Below, piece after piece: positions 11,047 to 36,031 of a stretch of DNA of 64,000 nt. The notes beneath the pieces are model-generated. The model was not told where the DNA came from, did not search any database, and saw only the letters and a list, made by a program, of their open reading frames with translations. Made by a program: the position numbers and the translations under genes. The first letter of the stretch is position 1. Each line of letters opens with the position of its first letter. Source of the DNA: Streptomyces sp. ISL-87 (GTDB lineage: Bacteria > Actinomycetota > Actinomycetes > Streptomycetales > Streptomycetaceae); NCBI RefSeq assembly GCF_018614095.1, contig NZ_JAGGOY010000079.1, forward strand, positions 1-64,000, given 5' to 3'.

Positions 11047-11204
11047 GTCAGCGCCTGCCCGAGGCCCCGGGGCTGCGCGGGCCCGGACGAGGATCCGGCG
11101 ATCCGGCGGTTCGTGGGCGGGGCCTGTTCGACGGCTTCACGACCAGTAGTCCAGGGCCGGGATTCCGGGGCGATGGGCTTGGCTGGCCGGCGGCCGGCCC
11201 GTGC

Positions 11205-11551
11205 CGCAGGTCGGGGACGTCAAAGGCCTTGTCCGCGTGCAGGCGTTGGGGTTTAAAGTGGCGGCCGCGGTGGGGGTCGTGTCTCGTTTGGTGACCGAGC
11301 ACCATGGGCTTCAGGGCTTCGCTGTCGTGGGTGTTGCCCGCGCTGACGCCGACGACGAGTGGCAGTCCTGCCGCGTCCGACAGGATGTGCATCTTGGAAT
11401 CCGGCTTGCCCCGGTCCACGGGGCTCGGACCTGTGAGTTCGCCCCCCTCTTTTGCCCTGGCGTGGGCGGAGTCGAGGACTACGCGGGAGAAGTCGAGCAG
11501 GCCGGCGTCGTCGAGCCGGTACAGGATCTCCTCGTGCAGCCGGCCCCACAC
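11205..11551 (-). pseudogene. IS5-family transposase fragment
   Basis: The frame gives WGRLHEEILYRLDDAGLLDF, VVLDSAHARAKEGGELTGPS, PVDRGKPDSKMHILSDAAG and VSAGNTHDSEALKPMVLG, then LHADKAFDVPDLR. These are the first DDE aspartate region, the GP.PVDRGK.GSK.H box and the LHADKGYD box of IS5-group (IS1647/IS112-like) transposases. The N-terminus and the final Glu-containing region are missing, and no terminal inverted repeats were found. Its 5' end abuts the RNA-methyltransferase repeat at 11561. It is an inactive relic. Confidence 0.8.
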
Positions 11552-11560
11552 GTCAAATGA

Positions 11561-11672
11561 GCGTCAAGATATCGCCCGTAACGCCCACAGCGCACATCAT
11601 GCGCACCGACAAAATCGCAGGTCAGATACCTTCCCGCACCGGTTCAAGGATCGCCACGCACTCCACGTGGTG
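11561..11672. repeat. RNA-methyltransferase 3'-end repeat, left copy
   Basis: I count 97 of 112 bases identical to 18167-18278, in the same orientation. On the minus strand it encodes the last residues THHVECVAILEPVREG before a stop at 11622, plus about 60 bp of downstream DNA. Upstream of THHVE the left copy diverges, so only the gene end is present. Duplicated gene 3' ends of this sort are the usual scars of site-specific integration. Confidence 0.7.
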
Positions 11673-12011
11673 GGTCGCGCAAAACATGTGCAACACAAGC
11701 GTGTGCAAGGAAACCGCAGGCCAGAGACCTGTTCCACTCTGACCGGGCGCAACGCCCTTGTGTGTTACGTGCGGAGTGGGCGCCAAGTGCGAAGTCCTGA
11801 CGCTCAGCCTCTCCGTCGCGCTCGGGACAGCGGCACGGTATGCGACATCAACATCATCCAGTTCGGGGCCATTTGACGGCACCATGTGCCAAGCAGCTGT
11901 GTTGCGCTCTATCAGGATTCGGGTGGATGGCCCCTCGTCACCCTGCGGACCCCTCCAGCAACACGAGACCGCCTTACCCGCCCGGGGGGGGTGGCGGGCA
12001 ACCTGGTTCGG
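11673..12011. other. gap with no recognisable gene
   Basis: Apart from the frame running out of the methyltransferase-like repeat, no open frame with coding-like third positions, no hairpin of note and no RNA gene was seen. GC content is lower here than in neighbouring genes, in keeping with patchwork non-coding DNA. Confidence 0.5.
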
Positions 12012-12788
12012 TTACACGTCTCGCGAGTGCAGCGTCGCGCCCCCGACGGCCAGTGCGCCGGCGGCCCACAGAGCCACCACGCCGAGACCTTCCCAGGGAC
12101 CGATCGGGAGTTGGTCGACGCCGATCGTCGTCTGGACGGAGAGGCCGGCCGTCATGGGGGCGCTCTGCTGGAGGAGCCGCTGCCAGTCCGGGTCCGTGAT
12201 CACCTGGGTGAGGATCGGGAAGAAGAAGAGCAGTCCCAGAACGATCCCGATCGCCGTCGCCGAGCTCCGCACGATCAGTGCAATGCCGAGGCTGAGCAGC
12301 CCGATCAGGGCGAGGTAGAGGACGGAGCCCACGCCGGCGCGCAGCGTCTGCGAGTCGGCCAGCGACATCGGCTCGTACCCGTGCGCCTCGGTGAAGCCCC
12401 GGCCCGGCTGGACCATCCCGCCGATCAGCAGGGACCCGAAGACACCGATGGCACCCGCCACCACGATCACCGCGCTGAGGACGGCCGCCTTCGAGAGGAG
12501 GACGGTCAGCCTGCGCGGTACAGCGGCGACCGTGGTCTGCATCATGCCGGTGCTGTACTCGTTGCCGACCATCAGCACCGCGACGATCGCGGCGACGACC
12601 TGGCCGACCATGACACCGGTGAGGCTGAGCTTCGTGGCGTCCTCTCCACAGCCGATGGCATCACACCGGGAGGTCATGGCCACCGCGGCGCCGACTGCCA
12701 GGGTCAGGGCCACGGCGCCGAGCAGCAGCCAGCCGTTGCTGGAGTCCGTCCGCAGCTTCGTCCACTCCGCGCGTCCCGCGTACCTCAT
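12012..12788 (-). CDS. ABC-2 type permease
   Basis: 258 residues beginning MRYAGRAEWTKLRTDSSNGW, the usual amphipathic N-terminal helix of actinobacterial ABC-2 permeases, then about six membrane helices (WLLLGAVALTLAVGAAVAM; VVAAIVAVLMVGNEYSTGMM; the CSKAAVLSAVIVVAGAIG region; LYLALIGLLSLGIALIV; GIVLGLLFFFPILTQV; and the last near ALWAAGALAVGG). The ATG overlaps the stop of the preceding permease gene (ATGA), so the two permeases and the ATPase at 14332 form one operon and probably one exporter. Such systems often give self-resistance to peptides or drugs. Confidence 0.85.
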   Translation of the reverse strand: MRYAGRAEWTKLRTDSSNGWLLLGAVALTLAVGAAVAMTSRCDAIGCGEDATKLSLTGVMVGQVVAAIVAVLMVGNEYSTGMMQTTVAAVPRRLTVLLSKAAVLSAVIVVAGAIGVFGSLLIGGMVQPGRGFTEAHGYEPMSLADSQTLRAGVGSVLYLALIGLLSLGIALIVRSSATAIGIVLGLLFFFPILTQVITDPDWQRLLQQSAPMTAGLSVQTTIGVDQLPIGPWEGLGVVALWAAGALAVGGATLHSRDV

Positions 12789-14335
12789 ACGTCCCTCCGG
12801 CGGATCAGGACCAGGGCGCCGACGAAGGCGGCCGCGGCGTAGGCGGACAGGACGGCGAAGCCCTCCCACGGCGCCAGCGGGAAGTAGCCGTGCGCCGGCG
12901 AATAGACGGTGACGACCTGGTCGTAGTGGGTGACGGTCTGCTGGATGGCGAACCCGGCGGCCGGCGTGACCTTCAGGAGCCAGTCCGAGGCCGCGGGGGG
13001 CAGCACGGATGCGGTGGCGAGCAGGTAGGGCAGCACCATGCCGATGACCACCACGGTGATGGTCACGGCGCTGCGCCGCAGGATCGCGCCGACCGCCAGG
13101 GCGAAGACGCTGGCAGCCGCGAGCAGCAGGCCCGTTCCCACGATGACCCGCAGTTCGGTCGATGACGGCACCGTCAGGACGGGAAAACCGTTCGCGAAGG
13201 ACCGTGCCGCGCCGAAGGGCACCATGACGGCGGCAGCGATCGTTCCGGCGAGGAAGGCGGCGCAGCCCACCACGAGGGCCTTCGACACCAGCACGCGGCC
13301 CCTGCTCGGACTGGCCGCGAAAGTGACGCCGATCAGTCCTCGCCGGTACTCGACGGTCATGTAACCCGCCGCCACGACGACCATCATGATCAGTCCTGCG
13401 AACGCGCCGACGAGGAAGTTCGAGAGGATGCGCACACCGCTGGCGGCCGGTCCGCCGACCACCGGCGCGATGTCGCCGGCCCCGGTGATGCGGTAGCCCG
13501 AGCCGGACCGGATCACTTCGCCCTTCGTCGACTGGCTGTAGCTGCCGTTCGTACCTGCGCCGTCGCTGACCTGCCGGTCCTGCCAGGCGTTGCCGCTCCA
13601 CCCGCCGCTCAGGGTGGGGGCGCTGAACGTGCCGGTGGCGACGGCGGGGTTGAACCCCGTTCCCGTACCGGTCTCCTCCGTGGCCGACGGCGAGGTCACG
13701 AACAGCCCGACCTGCGGCGAATCCGAGAGTCCGGAGAGCCGGGCGGTGCCCACCTCGGCCCAGTTGCTGCCGTCCGTCGACTGGTAGCCGGTCACGGTGT
13801 CACCGGAGCGCTCCAGCCGGAGCCAGCGCGGCGCCTCCTTGGACACTGCGCCGGGCAGTCCCGCCGTGTCGTGCGTGTAGTCGTACTGCATCCGTACGCC
13901 GTGGGCGCCGGTGACCATCATCGACGCGTACGAGGACCCCGGCTTGAGGGAGTCCTTCACGATGATTCCGGCCTTGGCCCAGGGTGCGAGACCGGGCTTG
14001 TTCTCCGTGGGCGACGACGCGACCTGACCGGTCAGCGAGGGCACGGACACCGTGATGCCGCCGTCGCCCTTCAGTGGCTGGTGCATGAAGTAGAAGGCGT
14101 CGTTGACCGCTTCACCGGAGGGACCGACGGGCAGCTTCGATGCGTTGACGCCCCCGTCGTTGCTCGCGGCCGTCGCGAGCAGACCGACCAGGCAGGTGAT
14201 CACCAGCGCGCCGACCGTGCTGAGCACCCAGCCCCGTACGGTCCGGAACTTGGTCCACTCCGCGTGCAGTACGCGTCCGAAGCCGCCCCACTCCGGCCGG
14301 CGGGTGGCGGGAGGCGGCGAGAGCGTCGTGATCAT
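12785..14335 (-). CDS. ABC-2 type permease with a large extracytoplasmic domain
   Basis: 516 residues. VLHAEWTKFRTVRGWVLSTV and the first membrane helix are followed by about 230 residues outside the membrane before five further helices begin near NFLVGAFAGLIMMVVVAAG. The inserted region has a jelly-roll look: APWAKAGIIVKDSLKPGSSY, RWLRLERSGDTVTGYQSTDG and WAEVGTARLSGLSDSPQVGL match the pattern of DUF1349/LamG-like concanavalin folds. The start overlaps the ATPase stop and the stop overlaps the next permease start, both by ATGA. The domain may sense or bind an envelope ligand; that role is inferred. Confidence 0.82.
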   Translation of the reverse strand: MITTLSPPPATRRPEWGGFGRVLHAEWTKFRTVRGWVLSTVGALVITCLVGLLATAASNDGGVNASKLPVGPSGEAVNDAFYFMHQPLKGDGGITVSVPSLTGQVASSPTENKPGLAPWAKAGIIVKDSLKPGSSYASMMVTGAHGVRMQYDYTHDTAGLPGAVSKEAPRWLRLERSGDTVTGYQSTDGSNWAEVGTARLSGLSDSPQVGLFVTSPSATEETGTGTGFNPAVATGTFSAPTLSGGWSGNAWQDRQVSDGAGTNGSYSQSTKGEVIRSGSGYRITGAGDIAPVVGGPAASGVRILSNFLVGAFAGLIMMVVVAAGYMTVEYRRGLIGVTFAASPSRGRVLVSKALVVGCAAFLAGTIAAAVMVPFGAARSFANGFPVLTVPSSTELRVIVGTGLLLAAASVFALAVGAILRRSAVTITVVVIGMVLPYLLATASVLPPAASDWLLKVTPAAGFAIQQTVTHYDQVVTVYSPAHGYFPLAPWEGFAVLSAYAAAAFVGALVLIRRRDV

Positions 14336-15285
14336 CGTCCGGCCTCCTTGGTGACGACCCCGCGGTACTGCACGGAGTCCCGGGTGAGTTCCATGTACGC
14401 CTCTTCCAGGGACGCCCGGTGCGAGGACACTTCGGAGAACGCCACCGCGTTCGCGCCGAGCACGGACACGACGTGCTCGGCCGGCAGGTCGGTGACGCTG
14501 ATCGTGTCGCTGCTCGTGGAGCTCACCGTCGCACCGGCCCGCGCGAGCACGTCCATCGCCTGCGCAAGGGCCGACGTGCGCAAGGTGACGCGCCCCTCGG
14601 AAACCGAGGCGAGCAGCTCGCGCACGCTCATGTCGGCGACGACCTTGCCGCGCCCGACGACGATCACGTGATCGGCCGAGTCCTGGAGTTCACTCATCAG
14701 GTGACTGGACACCAGCACGGCACGGCCCTGTTCGGCGAGCGACGCCAGGAAGCCCCGCATCCACATGAAGCCTTCGGGGTCCAGGCCGTTGAACGGCTCG
14801 TCCAGCATGAGCATCGGCGGGTCGCCGAGCAGCGCGGCTGCGATGCCCAGCCGCTGCCGCATCCCCAGGGAGAAACCGCCCGCCTTGCGCCCTGCCACGT
14901 CCTGGAGGCCGACCCTACGGATCACCTCGTCCACGGCGGCGGTGCCGAGCCCCTGCGAGTGCGCCAGCCACAGCAGGTGATGGCGGGCAGTCCGGCTCGG
15001 CTGTACGGCAGCCGCGTCGAGCAGCGCGCCGACGTGCTTGAGAGGCGTGCGCAGCGTCTGGTACGGGCGTCCGCCGACCAGCGCGCTCCCCTTGTCCGGC
15101 TTGTCCAGGCCGAGGATGACACGCATCGTCGTGGACTTTCCGGCGCCGTTCGGACCGACGAAACCGGTGATCTGCCCCGGCCTGACGGAGAACGACATGC
15201 CGTCCAGTGCCTGAGTGCTGCCGAAACGCTTGTAGACGTCCCTGACCTCGATCACAGCTTGCGACCCATCGATCGTCTTCTCCAT
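14332..15285 (-). CDS. ABC transporter ATP-binding protein (DrrA/BcrA-like)
   Basis: 317 residues. IEVRDVYKRFGSTQALDGMS, Walker A GPNGAGKST, signature FSLGMRQRLGIAAALLGDP, Walker B MLMLDEPFNGLDP and H-loop SSHLMSELQ are all present. A C-terminal domain of about 100 residues ends LEEAYMELTRDSVQYRGVVT, as in drug and bacitracin exporters. First gene of a three-gene operon with two permeases. Its promoter region contains a perfect 34-bp palindrome whose 16-bp centre recurs twice in front of the histidine kinase gene upstream, so the two-component pair probably controls the pump. Substrate unknown; peptide antibiotics are the usual theme. Confidence 0.9.
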   Translation of the reverse strand: MEKTIDGSQAVIEVRDVYKRFGSTQALDGMSFSVRPGQITGFVGPNGAGKSTTMRVILGLDKPDKGSALVGGRPYQTLRTPLKHVGALLDAAAVQPSRTARHHLLWLAHSQGLGTAAVDEVIRRVGLQDVAGRKAGGFSLGMRQRLGIAAALLGDPPMLMLDEPFNGLDPEGFMWMRGFLASLAEQGRAVLVSSHLMSELQDSADHVIVVGRGKVVADMSVRELLASVSEGRVTLRTSALAQAMDVLARAGATVSSTSSDTISVTDLPAEHVVSVLGANAVAFSEVSSHRASLEEAYMELTRDSVQYRGVVTKEAGR

Positions 15286-15368
15286 GGAAAAAGGCTAGGG
15301 AAAGGAGGGGGTGCGGGTCGTCACGGCAAAGAGTGAAGTTCCGCGGTGCTCGCGTGAGGGACGAAGCA

Positions 15369-15402
15369 GACCGCCCCTCCCTCGTACGAGGGAGGGGCGG
15401 TC
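15369..15402. promoter_or_regulatory. 34-bp perfect palindrome, candidate operator of the ABC operon
   Basis: 16-base arms around a TA centre. The middle 16 bp, TCCCTCGTACGAGGGA (15378-15393), equal the kinase promoter sites at 17731-17746 except for the two central bases. It lies 83-117 bp upstream of the ATPase start. It could also form a terminator hairpin for the carrier-protein fragment, but the match favours an operator. Confidence 0.7.
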
Positions 15403-15469
15403 TCCTCCCTGAGGATGTGGCCCAGGATCTGTCGTGTGGATCGGGCGGGCGTGATCCACACGCCGGGAC

Positions 15470-15709
15470 TCAGAGGTCGAATTCCTCGTACTCCGTGTCC
15501 TCCGCGTCCGCACCGCTTCCGACGATCGTGGCGATCGCCGCGACCATGGGCCGGTCGAAGACGGAGGCGTGCGACAGATCGACCCCGAACACCGCCCTGA
15601 CGCGTGAGACCGCCGGTGTGGCGAGCAGCGAGTGCCCGCCCCGGTCGGAGAACTTGCCGTCGACCCCGACACGTTCCACGCACAGGAGCTCGGCCCCCAG
15701 GAATCCCAT
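15470..15709 (-). pseudogene. NRPS carrier-protein (PCP) domain fragment
   Basis: 79 residues: [56 protein letters not shown] and an acidic tail [10 protein letters not shown] with a stop. The GGHS serine that takes the phosphopantetheine arm is intact. Free-standing carrier proteins normally begin further upstream, and here the first helix is abbreviated, so this looks like the 3' end of an NRPS gene fused to a chance ATG at 15709. It lies between the response regulator and ABC genes on the same strand. A short working carrier protein cannot be excluded. Confidence 0.65.
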
Positions 15710-15730
15710 AGGTCCGGAGTCCCGGATTCC

Positions 15731-16432
15731 CTAGTCGGTCCTGCGGAATCCCGGGACGACGAGTCCCGTTTCGTACGCCGCGATCACGGCCTGGGTGCGG
15801 TCCCGCAGGCCCAGTTTGGTCAGTGTGCGGCTGACGTGCGACTTCACCGTCTCCTCCGTGACGAGGAGGCGGGCGGCGATCTCCCCGTTGGACATACCTT
15901 CGGCGACGAGCAGCAGTACCTCGGTTTCCCGCGCCGTGAGCATCTTGACGTCCGGCGACGGCTGGGCCGTGGTCCTGGCGGGTAGTTGCGTGAACTCACT
16001 GATCAGCCGGCGGGTGACCCCGGGGTCGAGCAGGGCCTCTCCGGCGGCGACGACGCGCACGGCGTCGAAGAGCCGCTCGGCGGTGGCGTCCTTGAGCAGG
16101 AAGCCGCTGGCTCCGGCGCGCAGCGCGTCGTAGACGTACTCGTCCAGGTCGAACGTCGTCAGGATGAGGACGCGTGGCGCCTTCGCTCTGTCGGGCGCGT
16201 CGCCGAGGAGCTGCCGGGTGGCCTCTATGCCGTCCATCTCGGGCATGCGGATGTCCATGAGGACGACGTCCGGGGACACCTCTCGGCAGACACGGACCGC
16301 GTCGACGCCGTTGGTGGCGGTCTCGACGATGGTGAATTCCGGCTGGGAGTCGAGGAGTGCGGCGAATCCGGTGCGGACGACCAGGTGGTCGTCCGCAATG
16401 ACGACGCGGATCGGTGTCGGCGGGGAGGTCAT
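15731..16432 (-). CDS. NarL/FixJ-family response regulator
   Basis: 233 residues. Receiver domain: IRVVIADDHLVVRTGFAALL (acidic pair DD), phosphoacceptor Asp60 in VVLMDIRMPEMDG, Thr in LILTTFD and Lys in GFLLKDA. LuxR-type helix-turn-helix: LTARETEVLLLVAEGMSNGE and VKSHVSRTLTKLGLRDRTQA. It overlaps the kinase gene by ATGA and is its partner. Likely target sites are the 16-bp palindromes in front of the kinase gene and the ABC operon, which would give autoregulation and control of the exporter; this link is inferred from the shared sequence. Confidence 0.93.
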   Translation of the reverse strand: MTSPPTPIRVVIADDHLVVRTGFAALLDSQPEFTIVETATNGVDAVRVCREVSPDVVLMDIRMPEMDGIEATRQLLGDAPDRAKAPRVLILTTFDLDEYVYDALRAGASGFLLKDATAERLFDAVRVVAAGEALLDPGVTRRLISEFTQLPARTTAQPSPDVKMLTARETEVLLLVAEGMSNGEIAARLLVTEETVKSHVSRTLTKLGLRDRTQAVIAAYETGLVVPGFRRTD

Positions 16433-17679
16433 GTGGTCCGTTCTGGCTTGGCGGGGAAACTGGCTTCGACGATGAATCCACCGGAGTCCGCCGGACCTGT
16501 GTTGATCAGCCCTCCGACCGCGGCGACCCGTTCCCGCATGCCGAGCAGGCCGTAGCCGCCGTCCGGCGTCGCGGGCGGCGCTCCGGGGCCGTTGTCGCGG
16601 ATGCTGACGCGCAGGGCGTCGTGGGCGTAGTGCAGTTCCACGTCGACCGGTGCGCCCATGGCGTGTTTGCGGGCGTTGGTGAGGGACTCCTGGACGATGC
16701 GGTAGGCAGCCAGCTCGATTCCTGGTCCCATGGGGCGCGGGATACCGCTGAGGATGAGCCGGATCATGGCGGTGGAGGCTTTGCGGGCCTCGTCGAGCAG
16801 GTCGTTGAGCTGGGTGAGGTCGGGTTGCGGCTTCCGCTCGCCGCCGGTGACGGGCCCGTCGTCCTCGCGCAGTACGCCGAGCAGGCGGCGCATCTCCGTC
16901 AGGGCCGCGCGGGCGGTGTCGCCGATGCCGAGCAGCCGCTCACCGCCTGCGGCGGGCATGCCGGGGGTGGCCACGCGGGCCGTCTCGGCCTGCACGGCGA
17001 TCATGGAGACGTGGTGGCCGACGACGTCGTGCAGTTCGCGGACGATACGGGCGCGCTCCTCGCGGGCGGCGTTCTCCCATTGGCTGCCGGCCATGACTTC
17101 GCGTATGGCGTTGTGTTCCCGGTCGCCTTGTCTTGCGCGTCGGGCGAGACCGGCGAAGGCGGCCATCGGGGCCAGCGAGGCGAGGAGCACCGTGCGCGCC
17201 CGGTAGTCGGTGTCCGTGGATCCGGCGAGGGCCAGTGCGAGGAACGGTGTGGTGAAGAGCATCGCCGCCAGGACGTTTCCGCAGCGGCCGAGCCGGTACT
17301 GGGCGAGCAACTGAGCGGCGAAGCCTGCCAGCGTCAGCGTATGGAAGATCGTGAGTGAGCCGAAGCTCGCCGCGGTCACCGTGAATCCGGCGAGGACGGG
17401 CCGCAGGAGAGCCAGTGGCAGCGCGGTGCACAGGCATAACAGCCCCATGACCATGGCGAGTTGGAAACCGCCGACGCTTCCGTCGGCCGCTTTCTGCGAG
17501 GTGTCCGCGAACATCCGGGGGATCGACCCATGGACGGCGACCAGCTCGGCGAGCGATTCGGCGATCGCGAGCACGCACAGCATCGAGATGAACACGGCGT
17601 TGCACGGGAGGGCCGTGGCCCGCCACAGCACTCCGGTCCAGCCGTCACGCCAGGCAGTCGCACGGTTCACGCCGGTCAT
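16429..17679 (-). CDS. sensor histidine kinase (HisKA_3 type)
   Basis: 416 residues from the ATG at 17679. About six membrane helices occupy the first 165 residues, with short loops and so little external sensor domain. The DHp motif ERARIVRELHDVVGHHVSMI carries the phosphorylated His217. Later come LTNARKHA (N-box), IRDNGPGAPP (G1) and GGYGLLGMRERVAAVGG (G2). This architecture (membrane-sensing, NarL partner) is that of DesK/LiaS-like kinases that often respond to envelope stress or antibiotics. Two copies of a 16-bp palindrome lie 52-91 bp upstream of the start. Confidence 0.92.
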   Translation of the reverse strand: MTGVNRATAWRDGWTGVLWRATALPCNAVFISMLCVLAIAESLAELVAVHGSIPRMFADTSQKAADGSVGGFQLAMVMGLLCLCTALPLALLRPVLAGFTVTAASFGSLTIFHTLTLAGFAAQLLAQYRLGRCGNVLAAMLFTTPFLALALAGSTDTDYRARTVLLASLAPMAAFAGLARRARQGDREHNAIREVMAGSQWENAAREERARIVRELHDVVGHHVSMIAVQAETARVATPGMPAAGGERLLGIGDTARAALTEMRRLLGVLREDDGPVTGGERKPQPDLTQLNDLLDEARKASTAMIRLILSGIPRPMGPGIELAAYRIVQESLTNARKHAMGAPVDVELHYAHDALRVSIRDNGPGAPPATPDGGYGLLGMRERVAAVGGLINTGPADSGGFIVEASFPAKPERTT

Positions 17680-17730
17680 TATGGCAGCCGGACCTCTGCG
17701 CAGCCGTCCCTCCAAGCAGTGATCAGGTAC

Positions 17731-17770
17731 TCCCTCGCGCGAGGGACAGGGGCATCGCTCGCGCGAGGGA
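17731..17770. promoter_or_regulatory. two tandem 16-bp palindromes before the kinase gene
   Basis: TCCCTCGCGCGAGGGA at 17731-17746 is perfect. TCGCTCGCGCGAGGGA at 17755-17770 differs at one base. Their starts are 24 bp apart. The same 16-mer, apart from its two central bases, is the core of the palindrome in front of the ABC ATPase gene. This is a probable regulator-binding pair. Confidence 0.75.
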
Positions 17771-17990: not shown

Positions 17991-18166
17991 CGGAAGCCAA
18001 GGCGTGGATCGCGTTTGCGCTGGTTTCCGCACTGGCCAGGTGCGTACAGGCCTCAGTCAAGCGATAGCAAAGCGGGTCGTCTCCACTCGACAGTTTCACC
18101 TGCACGAACGAGCCCCTGACGAGCCATCAGAGCGAGCGTCAAATGAGCGTCACGAGCGTCATTTCA

Positions 18167-18278
18167 GCGTCAAGATATCGCCTGTAACGCCCACACCGCA
18201 CATAATGCGCACCGACGAAACCGCAGGTCAGGCGCCCTTCGCCACCGGCTCCAGGATCGCGACGCACTCCACGTGGTG
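18167..18278. repeat. RNA-methyltransferase 3'-end repeat, right copy
   Basis: Direct-repeat partner of 11561-11672 (97 of 112 bases the same by my count), 6,606 bp away. Near its left end the motif GAGCGTC/GACGCTC recurs several times (18132-18170). Confidence 0.7.
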
Positions 18279-18305
18279 CGTCATCGGGAAGACGTGGAGA
18301 CAGAG
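18228..18305 (-). pseudogene. C-terminus of a TrmA/RlmD-family RNA methyltransferase
   Basis: The minus strand reads GLCLHVFPMTHHVECVAILE then PVAKGA and stop at 18228. FPMTHHVECVA.LE is the very conserved C-terminal motif of uracil-5 RNA methyltransferases. Nothing upstream of it belongs to the enzyme; the truncated PucR frame begins at once. It is the gene end left by integration or recombination. Confidence 0.75.
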
Positions 18306-35834: not shown

Positions 35835-36031
35835 TCAGCCCCGCCTCGCCATCGCCGCCCCCCTTCGAAAGGCACCCCGGCCGCGAGTTGACGTATCGGA
35901 AGGCGGCGAACCGGGCGGCACGAGCTCGGTCGGCTCCCCCGGACGGGGGAGGCGGATGCGGCCAGCGAGGGATGCGACTGGTCGGGGCCACCTTCGAAGA
36001 TGGAATTCCTGCTAGTGGAAGGGGAGTTCTG

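Follow-up and report, generated by a model that had tools for sequence, protein, structure and literature searches.

The closest described systems place an ATP-binding cassette (ABC) transporter under the control of an adjacent two-component system. Here we compare with them a module encoded on positions 1 to 64,000 of contig NZ_JAGGOY010000079.1 of Streptomyces sp. ISL-87 (this whole stretch of 64,000 nucleotides is called the window), in which copies of a 16-bp inverted repeat, TCCCTCG-NN-CGAGGGA, precede both a sensor kinase gene and the ATPase gene of an ABC pump. All genes of the module lie on the minus strand, in the order kinase, regulator, a 445-bp gap, ATPase, permease and second permease. 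Statements that carry a citation are drawn from excerpts of those papers.

From a single centred site, ChrA activates both its own operon, chrSA, and the divergent hrtBA (PMC6850329). The logic of this Corynebacterium glutamicum module, which pairs a heme-responsive two-component system with an ABC exporter, is like that of the divergent relatives described below, and the window regulator matches a solved ChrA with an E value of 7e-33. Unlike ChrSA-hrtBA, the window has two promoters, separate site copies after a change of gene order, and ABC-2-like permeases; HrtB is a permease of the MacB/FtsX type. In Bacillus subtilis, induction of lnrLMN needs LnrJK, and its promoter lies behind a terminator (PMC7472640). 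This polyene-responsive system has the layout of the window, that is, two-component genes, a terminator (putative in the window) and a separately promoted ABC operon; it comes from a different phylum, is likened to the window by layout, not by sequence, and has no operator named in the excerpt. LnrM and LnrN are two ABC-2 permeases, and LnrJK is of the HisKA_3/NarL type. AbrA1/A2 of Streptomyces coelicolor positively regulates its own operon, ABC genes included, although in the excerpt the authors left open whether this autoregulation is direct (PMC4193843); its regulator is tabulated as NarL-type (PMC9739842). It resembles the window in its NarL-type pair and its ABC genes, and differs in that the ABC genes come first and share one common promoter; the excerpt names no operator here either. 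Bce modules (BceRS-BceAB) join a kinase to a transporter with an unusually large loop outside the membrane (PMC3023708). A permease of the window carries an insert of ~250 residues that is predicted to lie outside the membrane and may be comparable, whereas the NarL-type regulator and ABC-2-like permease set the window apart. Bce modules have an OmpR-type regulator and an FtsX-type permease. As for the repeat itself, the 7-2-7 sites of NarL in Escherichia coli and the site of MacR in Streptomyces also consist of inverted 7-base half-sites with a 2-bp gap, and their half-site sequence differs from that of the window. The general arrangement is already known, and the assignment of the module to the NarL-type sensor systems with a co-controlled exporter appears well-supported.

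At the level of sequence, the same operator stands before the two-component and the exporter operons, as in modules of the ChrSA-hrtBA type. Since matching sites are found at regular positions in dozens of related bacteria, this operator very probably serves as a genuine switch by which the pump is coupled to the sensor. The candidate operators of the window are as follows (relatives are given by locus number).

17755-17770 (centre 17762.5), minus strand: distal operator, one mismatch; in L011 and L012 a one-mismatch copy lies equally far from the kinase start
17731-17746 (centre 17738.5), minus strand: proximal operator, exact; L011-L018 have a site at the same place
17707-17722, minus strand: weak third operator, TCACTGCTTGGAGGGA, four mismatches; extends the 24-bp spacing toward the kinase promoter
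15378-15393, minus strand: pump operator, exact 16-mer; centre 100.5 nt upstream of the ATPase ATG
15346-15361, minus strand: weak second pump operator, TCCCTCACGCGAGCAC, four mismatches; 32 bp from the first, on the ATPase side of a 36-bp palindrome

The initial annotation had reported three copies of the palindrome, two before the kinase gene (17731 and 17755) and one before the ATPase gene (15378). The motif search of the window found them again, with the same mismatch counts: exact copies at 15378-15393 (centre TA) and 17731-17746 (centre CG), and a one-mismatch copy at 17755-17770, which starts 24 bp from the 17731 copy. The two weak operators are not in that annotation. The pump operator lies ~92 bp before the ATPase ATG (15285), and the two strong kinase-side operators lie ~52-91 bp before the kinase ATG (17679). 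Site pairs ~32 bp apart are also found in some relatives. In L011-L018 the proximal site stands 66-67 nt upstream of the aligned kinase start and deviates from the family form defined below at 0-2 positions. At the offset of the weak third operator, close relatives showed 3-6 mismatches out of 14 positions in seven of eight cases; L018 has four mismatches, one base off.

The annotation had also held that such a match at three promoter positions was unlikely by chance, and this agrees with our counts. Allowing at most one mismatch, the window holds three matches, against a mean of 0.09 in 100 dinucleotide shuffles, none of which reached three. At three mismatches or fewer, the window held seven matches against 10.3 expected and so showed no excess; the weight therefore rests on the strong matches only. 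The assembly (8.14 Mb, 155 contigs) contains two exact 16-mers, both at the kinase-pump locus, so that the exact motif is not one that is common throughout the genome away from promoters. Of three one-mismatch 16-mers, one is the 17755 copy and two lie elsewhere. With at most two mismatches, 44 sites were found against 30 for a reversed control pattern, a small excess. A chance origin of the sites was rejected on the basis of the shuffles, the assembly counts and the permutations of the half-sites described next.

To follow the site in relatives, we used the best 80 of 213 loci from a protein search with the kinase, spanning Streptomyces, Saccharothrix, Actinomadura, Catenulispora, Kribbella, Plantactinospora and other genera. 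Counts upstream of the kinase refer to 78 of them, since L070 and L086 start inside the kinase gene. Within 500 bp around the kinase start, the window 16-mer occurred with at most two mismatches in 39 of 78 loci (37 of 76 without the two closest relatives), whereas 104 permutations of the half-site gave a mean of 0.6 and a maximum of 8. A family form, TCCCYCR-NN-YGRGGGA, which was defined on these same loci, was present near the kinase start exactly in 36, with at most one mismatch in 54 and with at most two in 64 of the 78. The corresponding means for 209 permutations were 0.3 (exact) and 1.0 (one mismatch); the maxima, 11 and 31, stem from near-identical permutations. Pump counts refer to 75 sequences, namely the window and 74 loci with an ATPase identity above 55%; the other six of the 80 loci (L012-L014, L070, L086 and L090) have no such ATPase, and in the 7.7 kb of L012 there was no ATPase match at all. 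Of the 74 sequences that have the promoter element (window included), 67 carry a family-form site with at most two mismatches upstream of the pump promoter. This conservation of the motif across several actinobacterial genera supports the earlier proposal of a response-regulator site that links the kinase and pump operons.

The putative promoter elements of the window are as follows.

17678-17686, minus strand: putative extended -10 of the kinase promoter, TGCCATAAT, from a reading of conserved alignment columns
15318-15324, minus strand: GTGACGA, a conserved -35-like element or half-site
15292-15298, minus strand: CTAGCCT, a conserved -10 (TANNNT) that ends 6 nt before the ATPase ATG

A sigma-70 scan gave no site at these promoters. 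The pump genes share the sequence G(T/G)GACGA followed after 19-20 nt by CTANNNT. The first element was present in 74 of 75 sequences (L029 has none) and both in 60 of 75; in 14 of the 74, the stretch searched yielded only the -35-like part. The start codon follows the -10 by 6-8 nt in 55 of the 60, so near that the pump transcripts are probably leaderless.

The phasing sample comprised the 56 sequences whose best site has at most one mismatch. In 54 of them, the site-to-GTGACGA distance fell into clusters at 18.5, 26.5-29.5, 48.5-51.5 and 60.5-62.5 nt upstream, the two outliers being at 37.5 and 81.5 nt. The vector strength was 0.89 at a period of 10.7 bp, and comparison of six cluster medians (the two outliers included) with random distances gave p ~0.002. 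Since these distances differ by whole helical turns, activation is indirectly suggested: the pump geometry points to an activator as a better fit than a simple repressor. At the kinase promoter, the 24-bp site spacing is not a whole number of helical turns, and the weak third site overlies the inferred -35.

The ATPase gene is divergent from the kinase gene in 66 of the 74 loci with a close ATPase and collinear with it in eight (L011, L015-L019, L021 and L023), in which, as in the window, the pump follows the regulator. In the divergent loci the site, where present, lies between the pump and kinase genes, typically as one copy. A tree of regulator and ATPase (76 tips, rooted on a paralogue on contig 94) placed the nine collinear members in one clade with a support of 0.94, nested among divergent loci. 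The divergent order thus changed to a collinear one in the clade of the window, and in the window each transcript has a site copy. In this clade a family-form site with at most two mismatches precedes the pump in eight of nine members (L021 misses, at three mismatches), and the six Streptomyces members have a kinase-side site with at most one. This supports a shared operator across the rearrangement; the exact motif is limited to this locus in its own genome.

We consider it likely that the phosphorylated regulator activates both its own operon and the pump through the 16-bp inverted repeat. On this model, which is built from sequence, the repeat (two 7-base half-sites, 2 bp apart) would be the site of the regulator encoded at 15731-16432. 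Once the kinase is stimulated, the phosphorylated regulator would bind as dimers. Its sites at the kinase promoter would lie ~92, 68 and 44 bp upstream of the putative leaderless start, those at the pump promoter ~100 and 68 bp upstream, and from them it would aid RNA polymerase in using a weak promoter. Pump and sensor operon would be switched on jointly, by positive autoregulation plus induction of the pump, which may export something harmful. In most relatives the single site between the divergent pump and kinase genes could serve both, and in the window the extended arms of the palindrome probably add a terminator hairpin between the two transcripts.

The same sites could instead be repressor operators that hold both operons off until a signal arrives. 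The weak third kinase-side site, with its overlap of the putative -35 region, would suit such a role, as would four relatives (L055, L061, L072 and L082) in which 4.5 nt separate the -35-like element from the centre of a site with at most two mismatches. In the window, however, the strong sites are ~68-100 bp upstream of the putative starts, the distances in the family shift by whole helical turns, which a simple steric repressor does not need, and the precedents in the excerpts cited above, ChrA, LnrJK and AbrA1/A2, activate. We therefore judge repression unlikely. It is also very unlikely that another regulator, for example that of the paralogue on contig 94, uses the sites as well or instead, with a different or mixed signal. 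At that locus the regulator/kinase and ATPase genes are divergent and accompanied by TCCCCCACGTGGGGGA, with a one-mismatch copy of the family form 22 bp further on, and the regulator has the same serine in its recognition helix; yet the sites there differ from those of the window at two half-site positions, and the regulator nearest a site is its simplest owner.

On a further reading, the copy at 15378 would be nothing but a hairpin that terminates transcription after the regulator gene, and would resemble the kinase-side sites by coincidence. The palindrome around this copy, given as 34 bp in the initial annotation, is in fact 36 bp long.

15368-15403, unstranded: perfect palindrome of 36 bp, made up of the operator core and extended arms; may form a terminator hairpin

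The RNA of 15350-15420 folds with -46 kcal/mol (z -5.8), which, like the perfect symmetry, would suit a terminator. A scan for terminators with T runs listed none at 15368-15403; a strong hairpin as such does exist there. Streptomyces terminators can lack T runs. The flanks of the pump site pair more often in the Streptomyces members of the clade (11, 8, 7, 4, 12 and 9 of 12 position pairs match) than in 50 divergent loci (mean 4.0) or the background (3.3); Actinomadura L019 and L023 have 6 and 2 of 12. At the kinase-side sites the flanks match at 11, 12, 7, 8, 8 and 6 of 12 pairs in L013-L018, and at 4, 5 and 3 in the window, L011 and L012. The arms are thus extended at kinase-side sites also, and need not be a terminator everywhere. 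Moreover, the core stands 60.5-62.5 nt from the pump promoter element in all six Streptomyces loci of the clade, and the same cluster of distances is found in divergent loci. Since core and distance recur where a terminator is not needed, we regard a pure terminator as highly improbable. The palindrome is probably an operator core to which a terminator hairpin between the transcripts was added.

Several observations weigh against activation through a shared operator. No family-form site with at most two mismatches was found in 14 of the 78 kinase-side regions or, upstream of the pump promoter, in seven of the 74 sequences (L021, L062, L074, L077, L081, L083 and L085). Within the collinear clade, the best kinase-side site of Actinomadura L019 and L023 has four mismatches, and that of Actinomadura L021 has two, at a position unlike the others. 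L013 and L014 retain the kinase-side site without this pump. The case is weakened in that related loci do not count as independent observations and in that the family form and promoter pattern were derived from the loci in which they were then counted; likewise, the six medians of the phasing comparison were picked by eye from loci that are not independent within a clade. Further copies of the motif also count here. In the window's own genome the family form has three further exact matches (C33, C56 and 35935) with no apparent link to the module, against one occurrence of the reversed control; the C56 match lies ~2 kb from a kinase match. Among exact 16-mers in other genomes of the genus, 16 of 30 loci inspected turned out to be one orthologous site in unrelated surroundings. 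Finally, L132, a paralogue in the window's genome whose regulator bears the family serine in its recognition helix, has no site with at most two mismatches in the 3.6 kb examined.

The match at 35935-35950, TCCCCCGGACGGGGGA, conforms exactly to the family form and lies close to the 5' end of an open frame. The orthologous site just mentioned holds the exact TCCCTCGNNCGAGGGA in L091, L092, L094, L096-L099, L101, L102, L104, L107, L108, L110, L114, L118 and L120, often next to a GGTAACAGGAATCACCGG-like stretch.

To what extent is the operator specific to such modules? A search for the exact 16-mer in 295 genomes of the genus, taken to be Streptomyces, gave matches in 71 of them, compared with 8 for the reversed control. 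The loci inspected were the first 30, a non-random sample, and two of them adjoin a related regulator and kinase and one a distant ATPase. Because the exact matches elsewhere were mostly unrelated in this sample, only the operator and promoter combined are specific. This combination, with the two parts 9-39 nt apart, a range that does not span the longer spacing of the window, was found in eight of the 295 genomes and its reversed pattern in none. All eight matches adjoin a relative of the kinase (31-57% identical) and six also this pump family, although four of the six (L049, L054, L063 and L073) were seemingly already among the loci that defined the pattern. In the genome of the window, a pattern with 30-60 nt spacing had its sole match at the window pump promoter.

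The composite matches L144 and L149 (also L153 and L154) concern another sensor pair with the same layout of operator and promoter. The pair is divergent from a gene whose product, perhaps metal-related, has stretches rich in His and Met besides predicted signal and membrane segments; the protein of L149 had no Pfam family at E 0.01. The L144 and L149 regulators are 48-50% identical to the window regulator and carry ETVKTHVSRIL, which is the commonest residue per position in the family; the window reads ETVKSHVSRTL. Serine 201 in the recognition helix is present in 76 of 77 family members and in two of 11 paralogues in the window's genome, and of these two paralogues that on contig 94 has a divergent ATPase and a site. 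A rule that the serine predicts the site was dropped, as only one of the two serine-bearing paralogues has a site.

Literature searches, which reached few subscription papers, gave no description of such an operator among the matches listed, and none of a permease of this kind. PMC3498368 was discarded as a source of the motif, since in the excerpt of that paper the 7-mer it contains is part of a primer.

The module itself consists of the following genes.

16429-17679, minus strand: sensor histidine kinase with HisKA_3 and HATPase_c; start at ATG 17679 or a leaderless GTG at 17670
15731-16432, minus strand: NarL/LuxR-type response regulator, Response_reg plus GerE
15470-15730, minus strand: frame with the C-terminal tail of a non-ribosomal peptide synthetase carrier domain, recognisable at ~15470-15667
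14332-15285, minus strand: ABC transporter ATPase
12785-14335, minus strand: ABC-2-like permease with a DUF1349-like insert of ~250 residues between transmembrane helices 1 and 2, predicted to lie outside the membrane
12012-12788, minus strand: second ABC-2-like permease (ABC2_membrane_2, 26.5 bits, cut-off 27.2; ABC2_membrane_4, 24.1 bits, cut-off 27)

Response_reg, GerE and HisKA_3 each exceed their curated cut-offs, which identifies a two-component system of the NarL/FixJ type. The carrier-domain tail scored 21.5 bits (cut-off 20.8) and lies between the regulator gene and the pump operator; L011 lacks it at this place and has a regulator-pump gap of 226 bp, compared with 445 bp in the window. 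The ATPase resembles lantibiotic-protection and daunorubicin-type ATPases and scores below the drug-export models, the best being TIGR03740 (182.7 bits, cut-off 309.75) and drrA (166.2 bits, cut-off 312.45). As it is well under those cut-offs, we assign no substrate. At 7159-9189 of L013, an apparent one-piece ABC exporter comes after the sensor pair and operator, in place of the usual pump.

Hydropathy analysis predicts for the first permease one helix, the insert of ~250 residues and then five further helices. The window protein stayed under the curated cut-offs of Pfam DUF1349 (23.7 bits vs 32.4), ABC2_membrane_3 and ABC2_membrane_4. In an alignment of the window protein with 41 of the 71 frames found in relatives, DUF1349 reached E 0.01 or better in 42 of 42 sequences and ABC2_membrane_2 in 37 of 42, at best with 3.1e-17. 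The predicted structure has a mean pLDDT (predicted local distance difference test score) of 88. It matched an uncharacterised Erwinia protein, a glutamic peptidase and a lichenase with 7-16% identity and partial overlap; because their folds are all-beta, these matches are taken to cover the insert. Viral spike entries among the structure matches were given no weight, as they aligned poorly, with a root-mean-square deviation mostly above 16. The topology predicts that the insert lies outside the membrane, and our guess is that it serves binding or sensing. A more far-reaching reading, which we regard as doubtful, is that these loci represent a widespread actinobacterial sensor-pump family in which a conserved sugar-binding-like jelly-roll domain of the permease, outside the membrane, passes the signal to the kinase, and in which the operator code was kept through the rearrangement by duplication of the site. 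If true, the pump would take part in sensing, as it does in Bce modules, but with NarL and ABC-2 components, and the family would be one not yet described.

The motif becomes a testable regulator code: it has a 16-bp site, two putative promoters and an identified candidate regulator, and dozens of variants of it occur in nature. The steps of whole turns predict that insertion of half a turn would break activation. The change from divergent to collinear order is a natural experiment on the retention of an operator during gene rearrangement. The exported compound can be the inducer in such modules, so a reporter of the pump promoter could help to identify it.

Direct repeats at 11551-11676 and 18157-18282, 86% identical over 127 columns, flank the kinase-pump module. 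Their sequence resembles the final codons of a TrmA-like RNA methyltransferase, of which an apparently fuller copy lies on contig 67; contigs 116 and 86 hold further partial copies, and another lies close to the kinase gene of L011. The repeats could represent island attachment sites. Just outside the left repeat, the frame at 11048-11551 reads like a transposase of the IS5 type.

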